Below, piece by piece: positions 18,023-32,831 of a stretch of DNA of 34,387 nt. The position numbers and the translations under genes are program-made. How positions within the stretch are numbered: position 1 is the first letter of the stretch; each line of letters begins with the position of its first letter. The notes beneath the pieces are model-generated. The model saw only the letters and a list, made by a program, of their open reading frames with translations. It was not told where the DNA came from and made no database searches. The stretch is from Acidiferrobacteraceae bacterium (lineage in GTDB: Bacteria > Pseudomonadota > Gammaproteobacteria > Acidiferrobacterales > SZUA-150), in assembly GCA_003228915.1 (NCBI GenBank), contig QIGL01000101.1, positions 1-34,387 of the forward strand, written 5' to 3'.

Positions 18023-18355
18023 AGTGGTGCTCTTTTAAATTCAGTCCATGATTTCACTATTATTCCATGCAATAAATACACCATCATCTGGCTGAAGAGT
18101 ATATATTGTTGTAAAAATAGGTATTAATTAATTATATTATTATAAACAAAGAGTTACCACCCTATGAACAAGCTCGATTGTAACGGTATTTGCTAATATT
18201 CTAATAAAAAATAGACGCTGAACGGCAACAAAGCACCATACTGCCAAAATTTGGACCTTAATTCACTTAATCTTTGGCTGTTTTTTAGGGTCTTGTATCA
18301 TAGTCACATCCGGGCTAGCTTACAGCGAGCGATTAACAGGACAACCAAACCATTC

Positions 18356-19399
18356 ATGCAAAATTCATATCAACTGGTAAAAACCCATCTTCAGGAGAAG
18401 CTTGATAACGAGGTCGTACGTTGTCATTTATGCCACTGGCGCTGCAAGCTGGTTCATGGTCAGCGAGGGTTTTGCCAGGCCCATGTCAATCGTCACGGGA
18501 CATTATATAACCTGTCCTATGGCATTTTGTCAGCAATCGATGTCGGGCCGATAGAAGACAAACCCGTCAAACATTTTCGTCCCGGTAGCCAGATACTTTC
18601 TGTTGGTAGTTATGGTTGTAATTTTCGCTGTGGTGGTTGCCATAACCTGGAAATCTCCTGGGGCGTGGAGGCGCTTGACGAACTGGCCAAGGGCGAATCC
18701 AGGTCGGCCTATGCCAGCCCTGAAGATTTGATTAAAAGTGCGTTGCGTTTGAATGTGGATGGCATTGCTTTTACCTACTCCGAACCCGCTGTCTGGCTGG
18801 AGTACGTGATCGAGGTATCGCGCCTGGCCCGGGAAGCGGGCCTGTTTACGGTTTATGTTTCCAACAGTTTTGTAACGAAAGAAGCGCTCGAGCTAATGGC
18901 GCCCTGGATTGATGTTTTATGTTCTGATATTAAAAGTTTTGACGATAAGTTTTATAAAGACATTTGTTCCGTTGCCAGCGTAGACCAGGTGCTGACTTCA
19001 ATAAAAACTGCCCACCAATTAGGCATCCACGTCGAGACCCGCACCAATATTATCCCCGGTAAAAATAATAACCCGGAAACCTATCGCGCTATTGCCAGCT
19101 GGATTAAGCAGAATTTAGGCATAGATAGTCCGTGGCACATTACACGTTTTTTCCCCGCATATAAGCTGGCGCATATACCGCCAACTTCATTATCGGACCT
19201 GACCCAGGCAATTGAGGTGGCCAGAGAGGTAGGGCTTAAGAATGTGTATGTTTATGGTGACAAGGGTTGTGACTGTGCAGAAGAAAATTTACCCGTGTCC
19301 AGCTACCTGTCCGCCGACGAAAATACAATTAATGAAATTAAAAAATGTGCTGCATCCTGTTGCGGTGATGAGGGCGTGTTGTTAAAAAAATATGAATAA
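18356..19399 (+). CDS. amrS: AmrS-like radical SAM enzyme (AmmeMemoRadiSam family)
   Basis: About 347 aa. The radical SAM cluster motif CxxxCxxC is seen as CNFRCGGC. Before it is the family's Cys-rich N terminus (VRCHLCHWRCKLVHGQRGFCQ), and after it the barrel with FTYSEPAVWLEYVIEV and ETRTNIIPGKNNNPE. This is the layout of AmrS of the AmmeMemoRadiSam system and of related pyruvate-formate-lyase-activase-like enzymes. The AMMECR1 and Memo partners are not within the window. It also has extra C-terminal cysteines (GCDCAEENLP, CAASCCGDE). The frame extends to a TTG at 18251, but ATG 18356 gives the normal family start. The reaction is not established. Confidence 0.8.
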   Translation: MQNSYQLVKTHLQEKLDNEVVRCHLCHWRCKLVHGQRGFCQAHVNRHGTLYNLSYGILSAIDVGPIEDKPVKHFRPGSQILSVGSYGCNFRCGGCHNLEISWGVEALDELAKGESRSAYASPEDLIKSALRLNVDGIAFTYSEPAVWLEYVIEVSRLAREAGLFTVYVSNSFVTKEALELMAPWIDVLCSDIKSFDDKFYKDICSVASVDQVLTSIKTAHQLGIHVETRTNIIPGKNNNPETYRAIASWIKQNLGIDSPWHITRFFPAYKLAHIPPTSLSDLTQAIEVAREVGLKNVYVYGDKGCDCAEENLPVSSYLSADENTINEIKKCAASCCGDEGVLLKKYE

Positions 19400-19435
19400 G
19401 TTTTTTTAGACCAGGCTCAATCCAGGAAAGATCAA

Positions 19436-20833
19436 TTATTTTTGCAAATAATTCCATGCGTCGAGGGCGGCAATTTTATAGGCGCCTGCCAATGTTGGGT
19501 AGTTGAATATATTATTCAAAAAATAATCCAGCTTACCCTCCAGTTTGATGACAGACTGACCAATATGGATGAGCTCGGTGGCGTTATAGCCCATAATATG
19601 AACACCAAGCAGCTGTCGGTCGGTTGCGCTAACCAAAATTTTAAGCATCCCTGATTGCAGTCCGAGTATTTGTCCCCGAGCAGTTTCCTGGAAGCGGGCC
19701 TTGCCCGTGACGTAAGAAATGTTTTCTTTCTGTAATTCAGTTTCCGTTTTACCGATCATGCTTATTTCCGGAACTGAAAAAATACCATAAGGGATGTTTA
19801 CCATGTCACAGTCTTTTTCATAACCAAACGCGTTTAGTGCAACTGTCCTGCCTTGCTCCATTGACGTAGAGGCCAGGCTCGGGAAGCCAATGACATCACC
19901 GGCAGCAAAAATATGTGGCACGTCCGTCTGGTAATTTTCGTTTACTTTTATCAGGTGACGCTTGTTGGCATTAAGGCCGGCATTCTCAAGTTTGAGCGAA
20001 GAGGTGCAACCGGTTCGACCGGCCGTAAAAATGAGGACTTCACTTTCATATTTTTCACCATTTTCCAGGGTGGTGATAACTGTTCCAGTATTTGTTTTCA
20101 GGATTGATTGAATTTTTATCCCTGAATAAAAGTTCATACCATGATCTTTTTGATGTTTCAGGAATTCCGTAAGAATTTCCCTGTCAACAAATGGCAGAAT
20201 GTTAGCGCTTTCATTGATAAGTGTTACCTCAATCTCAAGGGCATTGAGCATGGTTGCGTACTCAACACCAATGACACCTGCCCCGATAATAGTGACAGAT
20301 TCTGGAAGCCCCGTGGCATTTAACAAGCCATCTGCATCGGTAATAGAAGTATCATCAAAATCAATATTGTCGGGACGACGAGGCCGGGTACCCGTGGCGA
20401 TCAGGAAATAATCGGCTGATAAGCTTAGTGAGCTACCGTCCTCTTTGTCTATTTTAATAGTGTGCGGATCAACAAATGATGCGGTTCCGTGTATTACTTC
20501 AATACTATTTCTTGCTAATTGCTTGCGAATCGTTTCCAGCTCATGCTGTATAGTTATATCCAGTCTTTGCCTTAAATCTTTAACAGTAATCTCTGACTTG
20601 AGGCGGTAATCATTACCATAAAAACCACGCTGACCCCAACCGGTCAGGTATAGAATGGCTTCACGCAATGTTTTGCTGGGGATAGTGCCCGTGTGCAGGG
20701 CAACACCACCGATAACATTATTTCTTTCTATAATCACTGCGCGCTTTCCGAGCTTGGCGGCCTGGATGGCTGCCCGTTGTCCGGCCGGGCCGCTGCCAAT
20801 GACTATTAGATCAAATTTTTGTTGTTGTTTCAT
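19436..20833 (-). CDS. sthA: Soluble pyridine nucleotide transhydrogenase (Si-specific)
   Basis: About 465 aa, a flavoprotein of the disulfide-reductase superfamily. The FAD-binding GSGPAGQRAAIQAAKLGK is near residue 15. The segment that holds the redox disulfide in relatives is GGVALHTGTIPSKTLR, without the two cysteines. That loss is the signature of SthA, as opposed to lipoamide or glutathione reductase. The NAD(P)-binding IGAGVIGVEYATML and the AAGDVIGFPSLAS FAD motif follow. It moves hydride between NADPH and NAD in the cytoplasm. ATG 20833 is preferred over the TTG six bases upstream. It lies 36 bases from the convergent AmrS gene and is downstream of the unknown helical protein on the same strand. 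Confidence 0.93.
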   Translation of the reverse strand: MKQQQKFDLIVIGSGPAGQRAAIQAAKLGKRAVIIERNNVIGGVALHTGTIPSKTLREAILYLTGWGQRGFYGNDYRLKSEITVKDLRQRLDITIQHELETIRKQLARNSIEVIHGTASFVDPHTIKIDKEDGSSLSLSADYFLIATGTRPRRPDNIDFDDTSITDADGLLNATGLPESVTIIGAGVIGVEYATMLNALEIEVTLINESANILPFVDREILTEFLKHQKDHGMNFYSGIKIQSILKTNTGTVITTLENGEKYESEVLIFTAGRTGCTSSLKLENAGLNANKRHLIKVNENYQTDVPHIFAAGDVIGFPSLASTSMEQGRTVALNAFGYEKDCDMVNIPYGIFSVPEISMIGKTETELQKENISYVTGKARFQETARGQILGLQSGMLKILVSATDRQLLGVHIMGYNATELIHIGQSVIKLEGKLDYFLNNIFNYPTLAGAYKIAALDAWNYLQK

Positions 20834-20869
20834 TTGCAATGGTTGTTAGGTTGGAATTGGAGAAAATTA

Positions 20870-22063
20870 TCAGAGCTGGGCTTCGGCATTAATTTTACTG
20901 TTAATCAACCCGTGTTGAATATCAAGCCAGGGACAGTCAGTGGTATCAATTAGTTTTGACAGTGCAATTGTAAAATTTTTATAGCTTAATTTTTCCATTT
21001 GATTTAATTGCAATGATGCTATTTGTAAAAAATCTATTAGCGATTCAAGCCTGCGTGATTTCAGCACGACATCACGAATATGATTATAATCAGATTTTGT
21101 CTGAAAATATGCATCGGAGTCACCGACAATTGATGCCAGTGAATTATTGAGCTTGTATAAATCATCAAGGAATATATTGTGTGAGTGCTGGAATAGCCTG
21201 AACACTTGCAGTAAATTTTCTTTTCTCTCGGCAATAAATGGAAATTCCTCTACAGCGTGTGTGTACCTGGCGTGCAGGTCCTCGTAGGGCGCTTTATTAT
21301 AATTAACCAGACCTTCAGACCGCTCCCTTAACGATGGGTGAGTGACCATCTCGCACATCATTTTGATATCATTCAGGCAGTCATTAACCCGTTGCGTGTG
21401 GTGTTTTAATGACTGGCTTGCAGACTGGTAGCGGGCGTCAATTTTAGCAAAATCAAGTTCATCAATGACCAGCTCACTTGCATGCGCCTGCTGAGTTGGA
21501 ATCATGCCTAATTGTTCCGACAATTTTTCCTTGATTAATTGACGTTTCTTTAATGCCCCGTGGAATTGGTTGGCGTACCGTGATTCAGTTTCCCTGGCTT
21601 GTACATACAGAATGAGTTCTGCCTGGAAGCCTCTTATTTTTTGTTTGAAATCCCTGGAAAATGAAAACAGGTCGCCCAGGAATCCGGCGTGTACATTTGC
21701 CGGCGGGTTGTTATCCAGTAAGGCCTGTTTCGCATTATTAATTTTCTGCTCAATGTTATTGATGCTCGTATCAACTTCACTGAGGTTATTGTCAATTTTT
21801 ATATAGGTCAGGTTCAGGCTGCGGTTAACCTGCAAGATATCTGATAAATGTTTCAGGGCCTCGTGAATGTGCATGGTGTGTTTTGTTAAAGCCTTAAAAT
21901 CAGCTCTTGCTTTAGCTAGCTGTTTGGCTCCCAGCAGACGTTCATCCTCAATAAATAATATTGCTGTTAACAGGATAAGCGACTCGCAACGGCTGGCCTC
22001 TGTATCAACCGGATTGCCGGTGATTTTGAGGTCACGCTGTTTAGGCGGGTTTGTATTTTTCAT
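20870..22063 (-). CDS. Uncharacterised helical protein (397 aa)
   Basis: A soluble, almost wholly helical protein. It has likely coiled coils around residues 55-125 (INNIEQKINNAKQALLDNN) and 155-240, no signal peptide, and one moderately hydrophobic stretch (SLILLTAILFI, 28-38) that is probably a buried helix. I recognise no family. The length, the good start (ATG 22063) and the lack of overlap with other frames support it as real. It lies 30 bases upstream of sthA, on the same strand, so the two could share a transcript. Confidence 0.72.
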   Translation of the reverse strand: MKNTNPPKQRDLKITGNPVDTEASRCESLILLTAILFIEDERLLGAKQLAKARADFKALTKHTMHIHEALKHLSDILQVNRSLNLTYIKIDNNLSEVDTSINNIEQKINNAKQALLDNNPPANVHAGFLGDLFSFSRDFKQKIRGFQAELILYVQARETESRYANQFHGALKKRQLIKEKLSEQLGMIPTQQAHASELVIDELDFAKIDARYQSASQSLKHHTQRVNDCLNDIKMMCEMVTHPSLRERSEGLVNYNKAPYEDLHARYTHAVEEFPFIAERKENLLQVFRLFQHSHNIFLDDLYKLNNSLASIVGDSDAYFQTKSDYNHIRDVVLKSRRLESLIDFLQIASLQLNQMEKLSYKNFTIALSKLIDTTDCPWLDIQHGLINSKINAEAQL

Positions 22064-22678
22064 GAATAATTATAGTACTCGGGTTTACTGGGAAACAATA
22101 TCAGAGACGAATTCGTCCGTACCGCCACCATTATTGTCTCTCATAAACTAATCCCGCCCTGATCTAAACCTGGATTTTAGCGAAAAAACAAAGTGCTGGT
22201 TATATAATGGCAGGACCTGGCAAGTAATGCCTGCTGTGGTTACCCCTGGGATGTTTGCTCGGCAAGCAATTCTGGTAATGTAATCGGTAGATTTTGGTAA
22301 AGTTATCAAAAGGTTATCATACTTTCCAGGCTACAAACCTATTTTTAGTAAGTTATAACTTATTGAATATAAATAAGACTTTATTTGGATTGCCAGATAA
22401 ATCTTTTGAAGAATTTAGCAACTGAGAGCCAGTTCACATAATAACTCATCAAATTGAACTAAAATTGTAAGTTAGGTGTAAGCCAGTTTTGTTAGCATGT
22501 CACGCATAGAGGCGGGATTCTAAGGCGCTAAATATGGGTAATTTATAGAAATTTACGGTGAGAGTGCAATTTATTAAATTTTTTTAGGGTAAACACGTTG
22601 CTTAATGGGCTGTTTGCCATATATTTAATTAGTATATAGAACAGAATTTGGCTCAGGATATTTTAACAGGAGCCTCCG
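22064..22678. other. Long intergenic region between divergent genes
   Basis: It holds no gene I can support. A 19-codon frame (22085-22144, minus) precedes the helical protein and may be a leader or chance. A 14-base AT-rich palindrome TAAGTTATAACTTA lies at 22349-22362, and nearby GTTATCA-type repeats (22297-22319) could be regulator sites for the lipoprotein gene downstream. No clean -35/-10 pair stands out. Confidence 0.4.
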
Positions 22679-25453
22679 GTGGCAATAATTAAGGCAGTAC
22701 TCAGGGGTATTAACAGTATGACAACAGATAACAGCAGCAATATAGCAATAGTAAAGCGAATGGCTATAGGATTGGCACTATTCACATTAGCGGCGGGTTG
22801 TTCACCTAACCCAGAAGGCGATGGCAGTGTCAGTGGTGGTGTATCTGGCCTGGAAATGGCCACAACCATGAGCGTTGTAACGCCTGTCAGTGATCCCCCA
22901 TCCGGGGCTGCAAACCTGGTTGGTTTAAGTAGCGCCCAACAAAATTTATCAATTATTAAGCCTTACCTGGTAAATGAAAATTTCCCCGTGGGATCCGACT
23001 ACGCAAGTGACAATACCAGCGTCTATGCCTGGAATGACTCCATGGAGCAAATGGTGGTCGTAAACTTTGTGTTGTGTTTACTGGACGATGCCAATGTGAG
23101 CGGCATGGTGAATCAAGGCCCCTATGTGGCCCTGATAAATTTTACAAGTTGCGCAGATGAAGCATTTGGGGATTCCAATGACCAGGAACAATTAGTTAAG
23201 GTTGTGGTTACCTCGGTTCGCGCCTTTGATAGTAGCCCCCAGTTTGTTCGTATCTGGTTGCCACTGGCGGGTAATGATCCACAGGCAACTGCGGATGGCG
23301 TTATAGGCGGGGCGCTCCTGCAACTGGTCATAAATGAGGCGCCCAGCGCTACCGCACCTTTTGGTCGTTTTAATCTTAGCTTTGCACTTGAAGCGGATGA
23401 CCCAACTGGAAATTTTTCTATCCCGGATAATTTAGGCACAATCAAAACCATCAGTCGTGGTGATGGCAAAAGTCAATTTAATTTTGTATTTGAGCTGGGG
23501 GATCGCCTGGTACTAACAGATGATTATCAGATTCAGTTGGCCAGTGCACTGCTTGACGATGCAGCAGGCACCTCAGGTGTAGCTAAAACATTCGACCGCT
23601 CTATTAGTAATGGTACCGTATTTGATAGCGGTGGCGTTGGCTCGCCAGGGCTAGTGATTAATCAGCAAAGCAATGAAGTTGCCTATGATGCAAGCTTGTT
23701 TTACAGAAACAAGATTGGCTTTGATACTGGCGCAGGATCAAGCACATCAGATCAAGAGTGTTTTGACCGGGCCAATCCATATTTTGATGCCAATGATTAT
23801 AATCTCTACCATGAAACCGCCGGCACATTTAATGGTAAATTAGTTAAAGCCGGTCAGCGAGTTGACCTGACAACCAATCTTTATTTTGATTATGTTCAGG
23901 CGGGTACCGGTGCGCAGTTTTATGGCGATCTAAGTAATAGCAGTTTCTGGTGGAATGGTGATTTGGATGGCGATGGCAATATTGATCTAATTCCAGATCC
24001 TTCCACAGTACAGGTGACAGACTGGGATACCAATGTCACTAGCGATTATGTCATTCATAGCTCCGAAGGAAAACTAGACCGCCGTACCGGAAAAGTCGTA
24101 TTGGTTTCAAACCTTGCTGGCCAAAAAATGACTTATGGGGGCCCTTACAGCGGCACGCCCAGTGCGATTGGCGGCGGCATTACCTGGGATGGTTTGGGTC
24201 GCTATCCTGCCAACTTTGGCTTTGAGCAGTGGGAAGTTGAGATAGATGGCGGCAATAATTTTGTGATCACTGGCGGCAAAGTTTATAACACCGTTACCTA
24301 TCAGGAAGATATTACACCAGTCACATCAGCGAACATAAATCAGCCTGTTAATAATGATGTCATCGATGCACCCGGTGTGATTAGTGGCCAGCCCCTGCAA
24401 ATAAGTGCACCCTCAATTGGCAGCCTGACTTATAAAGAAATCGGAGCCGTCGTCGCCCTTCGTCGCGCCTCTTATGTCGTTTACCGTCCAGTTGCGCCTT
24501 ATGAACCAGGACTAAATAGTACCGTGTTATATTGTTATAGCCGTTGCCCAATAGGCGGCATTGCAGCACCGCAAGATACGCTTCCAGCCGGCGCTAATTA
24601 CTGGAGGTACCCGGCATTTTCAGCGCCCGTTCCCGGTGGTACCAATCTTGATGCCACTTTTAATTTGGCCGCAAATCAGGGTGGCGCCCGAACCTATACG
24701 GTACAAGTAAATGCAGCCGGCACTAAATATCAGCTTACAGATAATACCAATGGCTTAACGGTGGCCACCACTGATAGCACCAATGTCACATACAGTTCGA
24801 TTTATAGTGACCAGATGATCCTGATGCCATTGCTAGATGTATATCACCCCGTAGAAAATAATATCGCGCCTTATAACAGTCCCTATGATGTGAATAACCT
24901 GACTGCTGGCCAAAGCAGTTATCAATGGGCAACGGGTACGGATAACTGGAATTTGGCTCATACGGCAACAGTAGGTACTGCAGTGGGCCCAGTTGTAAGA
25001 TTTGATGAGCCATTAAAATTTAATCATACCAACATTTTGGCCGAAGACCGCAACGTGCTTCTTGGCGATGCAACCGTTAACTCCTATGATGGCCAGATAC
25101 TTAATTTAACTTATGATAACTGGTTGAGTGGGCTGCCCTGGCATTATTTGCCTAATATGGATACGCAGGTTTCGGTGAGCTCAGTCAATTTTGTTAATGG
25201 TGTGCAGTTGATAGACACCAATGGCAATAATTTTGTGGCCAAAACCCGCCGATTGCAGGAAGTGTTATTACCCATTGTTGACGCTATGGGGGTTTCGGAT
25301 TTAACAAGCTGCCAGGGCGCCCTGGATCTCACCGTGATTGATACCTTAACTTTACCCGGGACAGATGATCTGGAACCAATGCTATTTAATTTTTCGGATA
25401 TGCCCATAGGCATTGATGGACCACCAGCGGTAGTTGAGGGCAATATTCTGTAA
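22679..25453 (+). CDS. Large outer-membrane-type lipoprotein of unknown function (924 aa)
   Basis: A Shine-Dalgarno AGGAG (22669-22673) precedes GTG 22679 at a good distance; ATG 22718 is a second possible start. A lipoprotein signal follows (IVKRMAIGLALFTLAAGC, lipid Cys at residue 41). Ser at +2 favours the outer membrane. The mature part is rich in Asn, Asp, Gly and Thr with many predicted strands. One Ca-binding-like loop, DLDGDGNIDL, lies near residues 427-436. Eight or more further cysteines are spread out, including CYSRC, but there is no CxxCH heme motif. I recognise no named domain. It is alone between a long upstream gap and its own terminator, so probably monocistronic. A diverged remnant of a related leader lies just downstream (25586-25675). 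Confidence 0.8.
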   Translation: MAIIKAVLRGINSMTTDNSSNIAIVKRMAIGLALFTLAAGCSPNPEGDGSVSGGVSGLEMATTMSVVTPVSDPPSGAANLVGLSSAQQNLSIIKPYLVNENFPVGSDYASDNTSVYAWNDSMEQMVVVNFVLCLLDDANVSGMVNQGPYVALINFTSCADEAFGDSNDQEQLVKVVVTSVRAFDSSPQFVRIWLPLAGNDPQATADGVIGGALLQLVINEAPSATAPFGRFNLSFALEADDPTGNFSIPDNLGTIKTISRGDGKSQFNFVFELGDRLVLTDDYQIQLASALLDDAAGTSGVAKTFDRSISNGTVFDSGGVGSPGLVINQQSNEVAYDASLFYRNKIGFDTGAGSSTSDQECFDRANPYFDANDYNLYHETAGTFNGKLVKAGQRVDLTTNLYFDYVQAGTGAQFYGDLSNSSFWWNGDLDGDGNIDLIPDPSTVQVTDWDTNVTSDYVIHSSEGKLDRRTGKVVLVSNLAGQKMTYGGPYSGTPSAIGGGITWDGLGRYPANFGFEQWEVEIDGGNNFVITGGKVYNTVTYQEDITPVTSANINQPVNNDVIDAPGVISGQPLQISAPSIGSLTYKEIGAVVALRRASYVVYRPVAPYEPGLNSTVLYCYSRCPIGGIAAPQDTLPAGANYWRYPAFSAPVPGGTNLDATFNLAANQGGARTYTVQVNAAGTKYQLTDNTNGLTVATTDSTNVTYSSIYSDQMILMPLLDVYHPVENNIAPYNSPYDVNNLTAGQSSYQWATGTDNWNLAHTATVGTAVGPVVRFDEPLKFNHTNILAEDRNVLLGDATVNSYDGQILNLTYDNWLSGLPWHYLPNMDTQVSVSSVNFVNGVQLIDTNGNNFVAKTRRLQEVLLPIVDAMGVSDLTSCQGALDLTVIDTLTLPGTDDLEPMLFNFSDMPIGIDGPPAVVEGNIL

Positions 25454-25480
25454 CCCTGGCAAATGACAACCTAAATAAAA

Positions 25481-25507
25481 GGCAGGCTTGTTAGCCTGCC
25501 TTTTTTT
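25481..25507 (+). terminator. Intrinsic terminator of the lipoprotein gene
   Basis: GGCAGGCT (25481-25488), loop TGTT, AGCCTGCC (25493-25500), then seven T. It sits 28 bases after the stop codon. Confidence 0.92.
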
Positions 25508-25585
25508 GAATTTCTCCAATAGCAGTCTATGCTTAAATAGATGGTGTAGGGGTAATTCAAATGATTGTGTTAGGCAAGAAATTAA

Positions 25586-25675
25586 GAAATTTTACGATTA
25601 CTGGTGCAGGTAGGCGCACTGTTTGGATTGCCTGGCTATTCTCCCAGTCCTGAAGGGGATGGCGAACTGCAGTAA
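25586..25675 (+). pseudogene. Remnant of a second lipoprotein leader related to the 924-aa protein
   Basis: An open stretch with no start codon reads GALFGLPGYSPSPEGDGELQ and stops at TAA 25673-25675. It lines up with LALFTLAAGCSPNPEGDG of the lipoprotein just upstream (residues 32-49): ALF, L, G, SP, PEGDG are shared. In the DNA most differences fall at third codon positions and one codon is missing. The lipid cysteine has become Tyr (TGT to TAT). This is best read as the decayed end of a duplicated gene that diverged under selection before breaking. It is flanked by terminators on both sides. Confidence 0.65.
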
Positions 25676-25709
25676 AGACACTTATTTTTAGAAAACATAC
25701 CTCTACAGG

Positions 25710-25739
25710 AACCCCATCTTTCCGGCGGGGTTTTCTTTT
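25710..25739 (+). terminator. Second intrinsic terminator
   Basis: AACCCC (25710-25715) pairs with GGGGTT (25727-25732) and TTTCTTTT-type bases follow. It lies after the lipoprotein-leader remnant and before the symporter gene, consistent with it once ending a gene there. Confidence 0.7.
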
Positions 25740-25848: not shown

Positions 25849-27117
25849 ATGATCAAGTTGAAATTACACTGGCAAATAATTATTGCCATGGGTCTGGCGG
25901 CGCTTGCCGGTGCCATGACAGAAATGGACAGTAGTATTATTGGTATAAATACTTATGCCATTTATGATTTTTTCGGGCAAATGTTTCTCAATGCCCTGAA
26001 AATGATTATTGTTCCCCTGATTGCGGCATCGATTATTACCGGTATGGCCGGCGCCGGACAATCATCGGCATTTGGGCGCCTGGGTCTCAAGACGCTTACT
26101 TACTATGTAGCGACTAGTTTGATTGCCATCACAATTGGCCTGGTGCTGGTAGAAATTATTTCACCCGGCGAGATTAATGGCGTCCCGATCAAAGACCAAA
26201 TTGGCCTCAGTGCCGATACCTCCGAAACCCTGGCCAAAACAGAAGGCAAAGGCGCTGCCGATGTAGCCCAGGTATTTATTCGCATGATCCCGACTAACGT
26301 AATTGCCGCTGCCGCCAATGGTCAATTACTGGGGCTCATTTTCTTTTGCCTGTTGTTTGGATTTTTTATCACAAAAATAAAAGGACAATATAAAAAAGCA
26401 TTGCTCGATTTCTGGCAGGGCGTATTTGAAGTCATGATGTTATTAACGGACTGGGTGATGAAGTTTGCGCCCATTGGCGTCTTTGCGCTGGTTGCCGGGA
26501 TCGTAACTAAAACCGGGCTGGAAGTTTTTATTCCCCTGTTCTGGTTTGTGTTAACTGTGCTGCTGGCACTGGCGACCCACATGTTTGTTGCTATGCCGCT
26601 ATTGTTAAAATTTATAGGCCGCGTTAGCCCGGTACGCCAATACCAGGCCATGGCACCGGCCATGCTAATGGCATTTTCGACGGCATCTTCATCGGCAACT
26701 TTACCATTGACCATGGAGTGTGTTGAGAAAAAAGCCGGCGTGTCCAATCGAACCACCAGTTTTGTTTTGCCCTTGGGAGCAACGGTCAATATGGATGGCA
26801 CCGCTCTCTATGAATGTGTGGCAGCGATTTTTATCGCCCAGGCCTATGGTCTGGAAATGACCTTTGCTACCCAGTTTACGGTTGTATTGATTGCCCTGAT
26901 GACATCAATTGGTGTTGCCGGTATCCCGGCAGCCAGTCTGGTGGCAATTGTCGTGATACTGGGATCGATTGGACTACCGGCAGAGGGCATTGGTTTAATC
27001 CTGGCGGTGGATCGTATCCTGGATATGTGTCGTACCAGTGTCAACGTATTCAGTGACTCATGTGGCGCCGTGATTATTGCCAGGACCGAAGGTGAGCAGG
27101 ATATTTTGACACGGTAG
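25849..27117 (+). CDS. Dicarboxylate/amino acid:cation symporter (DAACS family)
   Basis: 422 aa with about eight transmembrane helices and two re-entrant hairpins. Family marks are the serine-rich hairpin tip STASSSATLPLT, NMDGTALY in the middle (cation site), and DRILDMCRTSVNVFSD at the end, where the Asp, Arg-Thr and Asn bind substrate. The arginine in RT favours an acidic substrate such as glutamate, aspartate or a C4-dicarboxylate, over neutral amino acids. It is in the inner membrane, driven by Na+ or H+. ATG 25849 follows AGGGGACA at a somewhat long distance. It is not clearly in an operon. Confidence 0.9.
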   Translation: MIKLKLHWQIIIAMGLAALAGAMTEMDSSIIGINTYAIYDFFGQMFLNALKMIIVPLIAASIITGMAGAGQSSAFGRLGLKTLTYYVATSLIAITIGLVLVEIISPGEINGVPIKDQIGLSADTSETLAKTEGKGAADVAQVFIRMIPTNVIAAAANGQLLGLIFFCLLFGFFITKIKGQYKKALLDFWQGVFEVMMLLTDWVMKFAPIGVFALVAGIVTKTGLEVFIPLFWFVLTVLLALATHMFVAMPLLLKFIGRVSPVRQYQAMAPAMLMAFSTASSSATLPLTMECVEKKAGVSNRTTSFVLPLGATVNMDGTALYECVAAIFIAQAYGLEMTFATQFTVVLIALMTSIGVAGIPAASLVAIVVILGSIGLPAEGIGLILAVDRILDMCRTSVNVFSDSCGAVIIARTEGEQDILTR

Positions 27118-27165: not shown

Positions 27166-27265
27166 AGTTATTTTGGTCTCCTCGTCAGTGCCTGGGCAAT
27201 ACATAGGGGGCTGAGTCTGTAAAATAGTCGGAACTGAATGTAACGGGCGCTTTATAATAGAAATT

Positions 27266-27413
27266 CCTTCTCCCTCAGGGAGAAGGCTACGACTACACGG
27301 ATGTAGTCGGTAGAGCGACGCAGGACGCCAAAGCCGAGGATGAGGGGACAATAAATTTGGGCAGTTTTTTTGCTTTGATCCCCTCACCCTAACCCTCTCC
27401 CGGTGGGAGAGGG
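27266..27413. repeat. 148-bp intergenic repeat with three perfect hairpins
   Basis: CCTTCTCCC-TCA-GGGAGAAGG (27266-27286), GACTACA-CGGA-TGTAGTC (27291-27308) and CCCTCTCCC-GGT-GGGAGAGGG (27393-27413) are each perfect. TGAGGGGA (27341-27348) pairs with TCCCCTCA (27379-27386). The right end, CCCCTCACCCTAACCCTCTCCC-like, is a well-known type of scattered proteobacterial repeat. The internal motif GGTAGAGCGACGCA with GCCAAAGCCGAGG recurs at 283-361. It is non-coding. Confidence 0.7.
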
Positions 27414-27488
27414 TAATTGCAGAAGCACTCTATTTAACTTAAACGGTCAATAATAAAGACTTAACAAACTCATAAAAAGGCATTTATT

Positions 27489-30224: not shown

Positions 30225-30257
30225 GGGCCGCCCGTTAGTGGGGCGGCCCTTTTTTTA
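30225..30257 (+). terminator. Intrinsic terminator of the Hsp20 gene
   Basis: GGGCCGCCC (30225-30233), loop GTTAGTG, GGGCGGCCC (30241-30249), then a run of T. GC-rich and complete. Confidence 0.93.
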
Positions 30258-30273
30258 TAATTTTATTTCATGG

Positions 30274-30430
30274 CCGTTCCCGCACGTCCTGTGCTCCACG
30301 GCACCTGCACATCCTTGTGCAATGACCGTTCCCGCACATCCCTGTGCTCCACGGCACCTGCACATCCTTGTGCAATGACCGTTCCCGCACGTCCTGTGCT
30401 CCACGGCACCTGCACATCCTTGTGCAATGA
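30274..30430. repeat. Three tandem copies of a 52-bp repeat
   Basis: Units at 30274-30325, 30326-30378 (one extra base) and 30379-30430, nearly identical. Each begins CCGTTCCCGCAC and ends CCTTGTGCAATGA. Each has two small dyads: GCAC-GTCCT-GTGC and TGCACA-TCCT-TGTGCA. There are no spacers, so it is not a CRISPR. A diverged relative lies at 32996-33040. Short frames through it on both strands are low-complexity and not genes. The array lies between the Hsp20 terminator and argB. Confidence 0.85.
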
Positions 30431-30486
30431 AGTAAGTACTGACTTCTTTTCCTGAATGCGGTAGTTTTGAGTCTAAATATAGATAA

Positions 30487-31413
<927 letters not shown>

Positions 31414-31574: not shown

Positions 31575-32831
31575 GGTAACAGATCAAACCGGGCACATGG
31601 GTAACAGGTAATAATGCATTGGCAAAATAAGGAGACGCCAATGCCCTGGAAAGAGACCTGTACCATGAATGAACGAACCTTCTTCATCGAAGCCTGGTTA
31701 AGCCAGCACTTTAGTGTTGTTGAACTGTGTGCGCGTTTTAACATATCACGAAAGACCGGCCACAAATGGATCAACCGTTTTAAAGAAGCAGGCATACCGG
31801 GTTTGGTCGAACAAAGCCGTGCCCGAAAGCGTCAAACACACCAGACATCAGCAGCCGTGGAGACAAAAATACTTGAACTTAAATACCGCTATCCAAGCTG
31901 GGGTCCGGTGACGATTCGGTCGGCCTTGTACCGTCAAGAGGCAGACTATGCCTGGCCCGCCAGCAGTACGATTGGAGAGATTCTAAAACGTCATGGGCTG
32001 GTTAAACCCAAACGGCCACGTCAAAAGACGCCGCCACACTCACAACCTTTAGCCCATGCGACACAACCAAACGAAGTATGGAGTGCCGATTATAAAGGGC
32101 AATTTAAATTAGGGAACGGCCAATGGTGTTACCCGCTGACGCTCACAGACAACTGCAGTCGGTTACTTATCCGTTGCAAGGGATTACACGGCCCACATTT
32201 AAAGCCTTCATTAAAGGTTTATGAACAGGCTTTTCGTGAATACGGCTTGCCAAAACGAATTCGAACAGACAATGGTTGGCCGTTTGCCATGAATACATTA
32301 GGCGGGTTAACACCGTTAACCATTTGGTTGTTGAAACTGGGTGTTTATCCAGAACGTATTGCCCCGGGTTGCCCACAACAAAACGGTCGACATGAACGCA
32401 TGCATCGAACTCTAAAAGCGGCCACATTAAAACCGCCGAAGGGAAATCTATCCGCACAACAACGCGCCTTTAACCGGTTTATACACGAATACAACGAGGA
32501 ACGCCCACATCAAAGCCTGGGATTGGGCCAGTGCCCCATTGATGTGCATCGAACTTCTCCACGCTCGTTTCCAAAAAACTTGCCGGGAATGCGTTATGAT
32601 CATAATTTTGAAGTTAGAAAAGTGAAGTGCGGTGGTTATATCAAGCTACATGGCCATCCCATTTATACAACACGTCAACTTGTAGGAGAGTATGTCGGAT
32701 TAGAGCCACTTCGACATGATCGTTGGCAATTGTATTTTGGAACACTTAAGCTCGGGATTGTAGATGAACGAATAGGACGGGTAATCCGGCCAACATAGGG
32801 GTTACCCATGTGCCCGGTTTGATCTGTTACC
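31575..32831 (+). mobile_element. Intact IS481-type insertion sequence, 1257 bp
   Basis: Perfect 31-bp terminal inverted repeats: 31575-31605 (GGTAACAGATCAAACCGGGC onwards) and 32801-32831. One transposase gene fills the inside. I see no direct target duplication at the edges (left flank ends CCACAAT, right begins TATCTGG). The sequence TCTGGGT appears in both flanks but not at the ends. It is inserted between argB and slmA. Confidence 0.93.
31641..32798 (+). CDS. IS481 family transposase
   Basis: 385 aa from ATG 31641. The AAGGAG at 31629-31634 lies six bases upstream, and MPWKETCTMNERTFFIEAW is the family's usual start; an ATG at 31614 is in frame but lacks a ribosome site. A helix-turn-helix lies near residues 20-60 (VVELCARFNISRKTGHKWINR), and an rve/DDE integrase core follows: Asp in VWSADYKGQF, Asp in IRTDNGWPFA, Glu in GRHERMHRTLK. 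All three are intact, so the enzyme should be active. It is the only protein coded by the element. Confidence 0.94.
   Translation: MPWKETCTMNERTFFIEAWLSQHFSVVELCARFNISRKTGHKWINRFKEAGIPGLVEQSRARKRQTHQTSAAVETKILELKYRYPSWGPVTIRSALYRQEADYAWPASSTIGEILKRHGLVKPKRPRQKTPPHSQPLAHATQPNEVWSADYKGQFKLGNGQWCYPLTLTDNCSRLLIRCKGLHGPHLKPSLKVYEQAFREYGLPKRIRTDNGWPFAMNTLGGLTPLTIWLLKLGVYPERIAPGCPQQNGRHERMHRTLKAATLKPPKGNLSAQQRAFNRFIHEYNEERPHQSLGLGQCPIDVHRTSPRSFPKNLPGMRYDHNFEVRKVKCGGYIKLHGHPIYTTRQLVGEYVGLEPLRHDRWQLYFGTLKLGIVDERIGRVIRPT

Follow-up and report, generated by a model that had tools for sequence, protein, structure and literature searches.

Probable remnant of a tandem lipoprotein gene, lost by internal deletion, in an Acidiferrobacteraceae genome

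The short stretch at 25586-25675 of the window (the whole 34,387-nucleotide stretch of DNA analyzed here, from an Acidiferrobacteraceae bacterium) is real, and lies between an intact lipoprotein gene (gene 1) and a sodium:dicarboxylate symporter gene. We conclude, with a probability of roughly 0.93, that it is the pseudogene remnant of a tandem second lipoprotein gene (gene 2) that underwent an internal deletion at short repeats and then drifted. Both ends of the remnant are homologous to the two ends of a gene in a relative, the surrounding gene order is the same, and the junction carries a short repeat; because all of these are kept, a pseudogene formed by internal deletion and subsequent decay is the indicated reading. 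The remnant presumably has no present function, and is a well-supported, ordinary pseudogene. The features of the locus are collected in Table 1.

Table 1. Coordinates in the window of gene 1, the gene-2 remnant, and flanking features
Feature	Position	Strand	Basis and remarks
Gene-1 5' region and leader, C6-like	22462..22861	+	84-95% identity; three-way alignment, 100-base steps
Gene 1, intact 911-aa lipoprotein paralog, surviving member of the pair	22718..25453	+	ORF; alternative start GTG at 22679
Terminator after gene 1	25477..25504	+	-19.8 kcal/mol, z -5.0; counterpart L011 3833-3868
5' untranslated region of lost gene 2, still recognizable	25525..25560	+	Alignment with C3 and C6 gene 2
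Gene-2 leader remnant	25561..25663	+	Start codon kept; indels broke frame; lipobox Cys to Tyr
Putative deletion junction GATGG(CG)	25658..25664	+	Single copy here; two in relative, 2334 bp apart
Last codons of gene 2 (…GELQ-stop)	25663..25675	+	Relative's 3' end; family C-terminal motif
Terminator of gene 2	25705..25736	+	-11.7, z -1.7; kept
Sodium:dicarboxylate symporter gene, synteny anchor	25849..27117	+	Pfam PF00375 (SDF)

The remnant and its counterpart in a relative

Translated in frame 3 from 25586, the stretch gives EILRLLVQVGALFGLPGYSPSPEGDGELQ-stop, with a tyrosine in place of the lipobox cysteine; the in-frame reading of the remnant ends ...ALFGLPGYSPSPEGDGELQ-stop. The initial annotation had taken it for the decayed leader of a second member of the lipoprotein family of gene 1, differing from that of gene 1 mostly by silent changes and lacking the lipid cysteine, and all three points hold. 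Compared as a peptide with the gene-1 leader, the remnant scores 51, which none of 5000 shuffles equals, and ranks second among the 1748 open stretches in the window, gene 1 itself being first. The residues common to the two are mostly specified by different codons, and in DNA comparison with the window's gene 1 alone the best match (13/15 identical) is not above chance, 158 of 1000 shuffles being as good. When the family leaders were compared, a hidden Markov model of five intact leaders, from which the remnant was left out, nonetheless found it with E=2e-11. A leader-core model was also run on six genomes with a cut-off of E<0.01. In the window's own genome (G000) it matched only the leader of gene 1 (4.6e-29) and the remnant (1.5e-4); two further matches (0.175 and 0.691) do not rise above noise. 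The tyrosine codon is what would be expected in a pseudogene. The rest of the gene had also been called lost, which is true of the body, including the C-terminal VIxGxxQ motif, but not of the GELQ-stop codons or of the 5' untranslated region. The homologous stretch is longer than first reported, running from 25525 in the 5' untranslated region, with an ATG at 25561, past 25675 into the terminator.

Comparison within the genus relies on one genome, G001 (MAG CAJVXY01, an uncultured Acidiferrobacteraceae bacterium). Its name includes the run DRR093004, which is described as coming from massive sulfide deposits on the deep-sea floor in the Southern Mariana Trough (PMC6946796). In contig C3 of G001 an orthologue of gene 1 (85% amino acid identity) is followed by an equivalent terminator and then by a second gene of the family, whose leader is MINLSKNLRNYTILPALAGALLVLAGCSPSPEGDG and whose body is open up to the contig end (L011 3910-5058). 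This is exactly the place, between the two terminators, where the initial annotation had proposed to look for an intact second gene, and its proposal therefore does not fall for want of such a gene in relatives. Contig C67 (L022) has the 3' end of the second gene (...PPAVIDGVLQ-stop), then an equivalent terminator and an adjoining symporter gene whose product is 92% identical to that of the window. As gene 2 of G001 is split across contigs, its full length was deduced from overlaps: exactly 127 bp are common to C3 and C67, which gives an implied gene of 2451 nt and 816 aa. The same 127 bp are also common to C67 and a second G001 contig, C6, so that C67 may continue either the C3 or the C6 haplotype; the 127-bp overlaps look like the assembler's graph overlap.

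On its 5' side the remnant has 78% DNA identity with gene 2 of C3 (110/141) and 75% with that of C6 (107/142), values reached by none of 1000 shuffles in either case. On its 3' side the alignment with the relative begins at the last codons, spans the terminator, and reaches the region upstream of the symporter; both ends are collinear with the relative at the same place. Gene 2 of G001 has one GATGG in its leader and another, in frame with the first, among its last codons, 2334 bp (778 codons) away, although a junction repeat of 5-7 bp is easily met by chance as well.

Bacterial pseudogenes can arise by deletion between short direct repeats, as in the classic lacI deletion studies. The remnant resembles such cases in its large deletion, in the single junction copy that matches a repeat at both ends in the relative, and in its later drift; we see no notable difference, the mechanism of the remnant being read from end states. 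The gene lost would have been one of ~816 codons, in tandem behind gene 1. Slippage or illegitimate recombination between two direct repeats in the same frame, of the sequence GATGG or perhaps GATGGCG, the first situated in the leader just 3' of the lipid-attachment site and the second five codons ahead of the stop, may have removed ~2.3 kb (about 2,334 bp) and left the 5' region, leader, last codons, and terminator. Such an in-frame deletion would at first have yielded a 38-codon mini-lipoprotein frame, and small indels that broke the leader frame and the change of the lipobox cysteine to tyrosine would belong to later drift; this is the order of events that we infer. A single internal deletion that keeps both gene ends is most simply the route of the collapse. 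The remnant is a clean example of the death of a tandem gene in which both ends of the deletion can be identified.

Could the stub still be functional, either as a short transcript from promoter to terminator or as a leader donor for conversion of gene 1? In favor of this, the stub retains its start codon as well as the 5' untranslated region ahead of it and the terminator behind it, and other leaders at the locus look converted between genes (see below). We nevertheless regard a function as very unlikely, since the leader frame and lipobox are broken and no long DNA tract is common to the gene-1 leader of the window and the remnant (best 13/15). As the initial annotation had it, the remnant lies between two terminators, the upstream one strong; that on the downstream side falls short of its equivalent in the relative (-11.7, z -1.7 vs -15.4, z -3.2), which also speaks against a function. 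That the deletion is an artefact of assembling a repetitive locus is scarcely credible: the window does come from a draft genome of 116 contigs and the contigs of the relative break inside gene 2, but a mis-join would lack the many substitutions and indels, Cys to Tyr included, that separate the remnant from intact leaders, and G000 holds no second family body, its one match being gene 1.

The lipoprotein family and the copy that was lost

Gene 1 matched no Pfam or NCBIfam family above cut-off, and a PDB sequence search with it returned no solved relative; its predicted structure (three rows) has a mean pLDDT of 24.7. The only NCBIfam match, for locus L013, was far below cut-off. The gene-1 family was present in four of the 41 genomes searched first (G000 included). 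Profile searches placed it in 4/57 genomes of the order, 24/369 drawn from the class, and 9/398 drawn from the phylum, the window's own genome being counted each time. Its members are open frames of about 740-1840 aa, from Gammaproteobacteria and in some cases from elsewhere in the phylum, and are marked by a lipobox leader, a GLxMxxxMSVV segment, and VIxGxxQ near the C-terminus (of 17 proteins compared, 15 have VIxG and 14 have Q three residues further on).

In the order search tandem copies occurred only in the window's genus; the other two family-bearing genomes have one copy each, and the single-copy homologues there are 813 and 815 aa long. In the searches of the class and the phylum no more than two candidates were scored for each genome, and these searches so cannot show tandem copies. 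At seven family loci outside the genus that were read with their flanks (L013, L014, L080-L084), none had a second copy.

Which of the two copies died? In a tree of 17 proteins of the family, built on the 472 columns for which C67 has sequence, a split separates the gene-1 types (window, C3, and C6) from gene 2 and all other genera with 100% support, and gene 2 is 38-40% identical to the homologs of G002 and G036 but only 27-29% identical to the three gene-1 types. The window therefore lost the canonical family copy and kept a divergent paralog, gene 1. The initial annotation had proposed a tandem duplication of which one copy collapsed; the tandem pair is indeed found in the relative, with the refinement that the lost copy was the canonical one and not a young duplicate of its neighbor.

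The tree also bears on a further alternative, that a short leader-like stub is ancestral and that the relative gained the full gene by insertion. Each state is found once in the genus, and the same-family genomes G002-G004 have no lipoprotein gene directly upstream of the symporter; in that place their loci (L024, L025, L026) have genes that we take to be msrP/msrQ-like. An ancestral stub is still highly implausible, given that the remnant bears both gene ends together with a broken frame and a mutated lipobox, and that gene 2 represents the canonical type of the family, which the tree sets apart from the gene-1 types with full support.

In C6 the leader and body of gene 2 (L012 1-1067, minus strand) are in different frames, through either a frameshift or an assembly error, and the genus may therefore be able to do without gene 2. 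Our literature searches turned up nothing related on tandem lipoprotein paralogs with pseudogenes, on uncharacterized tandem lipoproteins, or on lipoprotein pseudogenes of Acidiferrobacteraceae.

Recombination and the question of a variable surface protein

The neighborhood of the stub holds slightly more interest than the stub itself. Within its first 27 kb, C6, probably a co-binned relative, is collinear with the window over the part that lies upstream of the lipoprotein genes; it is also collinear with C3, to which its DNA identity is about 83-86%. Past the C6-like stretch at the start of gene 1 (Table 1), the identity of the window to C6 drops to about 43%, the bodies being of different types. 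Identity to C3 is 53-80% over that stretch (22462-22861) and afterwards mostly 72-89%, with one step at 64%. The switch from C6-like to C3-like sequence marks a crossover at the leader/body border of gene 1, at about 22862-22880. The gene-2 bodies of C3 and C6 share 96.6% DNA identity (258/266 aa), far above the flanks, and the gene-2 leader of C6 is, from the lipobox onward, 83-84% identical to gene-1 leaders vs 75% to gene 2 of C3, an apparent leader conversion between genes of the locus.

C6 also holds another decayed orphan leader piece, behind its gene 1 (L012 2610-2536, minus strand; E=2.4e-6 with the leader model), which stands between gene 1 and a Lamin Tail Domain gene (L012 1160-2386, Pfam LTD). 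Taken together, the crossover, the apparent leader conversion, and the further orphan leader show that the locus is recombinogenic, and that its lipoprotein genes were swapped and lost repeatedly in relatives.

The initial annotation, whose interpretation is partly supported as a whole, had suggested that this might be a variable-surface-protein locus. Mycoplasmas and Borrelia carry arrays of variable surface lipoproteins, which the present locus resembles in its adjoining lipoprotein genes with alike leaders and unlike bodies, its leader/body crossover, and its orphan leaders. Alike leaders do precede exchanged bodies here, as seen at the gene-1 crossover and in the gene-2 leader of C6, and the mosaic structure supports recombination. 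Unlike those arrays, the locus belongs to an environmental gammaproteobacterium and has one or two family genes per haplotype, and no switching element was found. The gene-1 body also gave no sign of diversifying selection: its dN/dS between the window and C3 is 0.065, at a dS of 1.26 that is near saturation, and the symporter has a similar value (0.07). This ratio points to strong purifying selection on gene 1 and counts against antigenic diversification. A variable-surface-antigen locus is only hinted at by these comparisons.

It is conceivable, if rather doubtful, that the conserved promoter-leader module serves in this genus as a recombination handle, behind which unlike bodies are exchanged between species and between tandem genes, orphan leaders such as the present one being the scars. 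If true, this would mean traffic in bodies in a marine bacterium of the environment for which no animal host is apparent. A body-swapping lipoprotein array would be of greater importance because the family matched no Pfam or NCBIfam model above cut-off, sequence searching found no solved relative, and the family is spread across Gammaproteobacteria.

Other features of the window are of note. Where G002-G004 have the msrP/msrQ-like genes, the window's genus has, ahead of the lipoprotein pair, a pyridine nucleotide-disulphide oxidoreductase gene and an unknown 397-aa gene (18251-22063 in the window). Between the symporter and an hslV-like gene there is an intergenic repeat-like stretch (27265-27420) with 'ctcaccctaaccctctcc' and a palindrome. 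Short DNA repeats at 30255-30730 lie upstream of an argB-like gene and extend into its start; their reverse frames repeat CTRMCRCRGAQ. The open reading frame at 31614-32798 presumably encodes an integrase-type transposase with a helix-turn-helix start.
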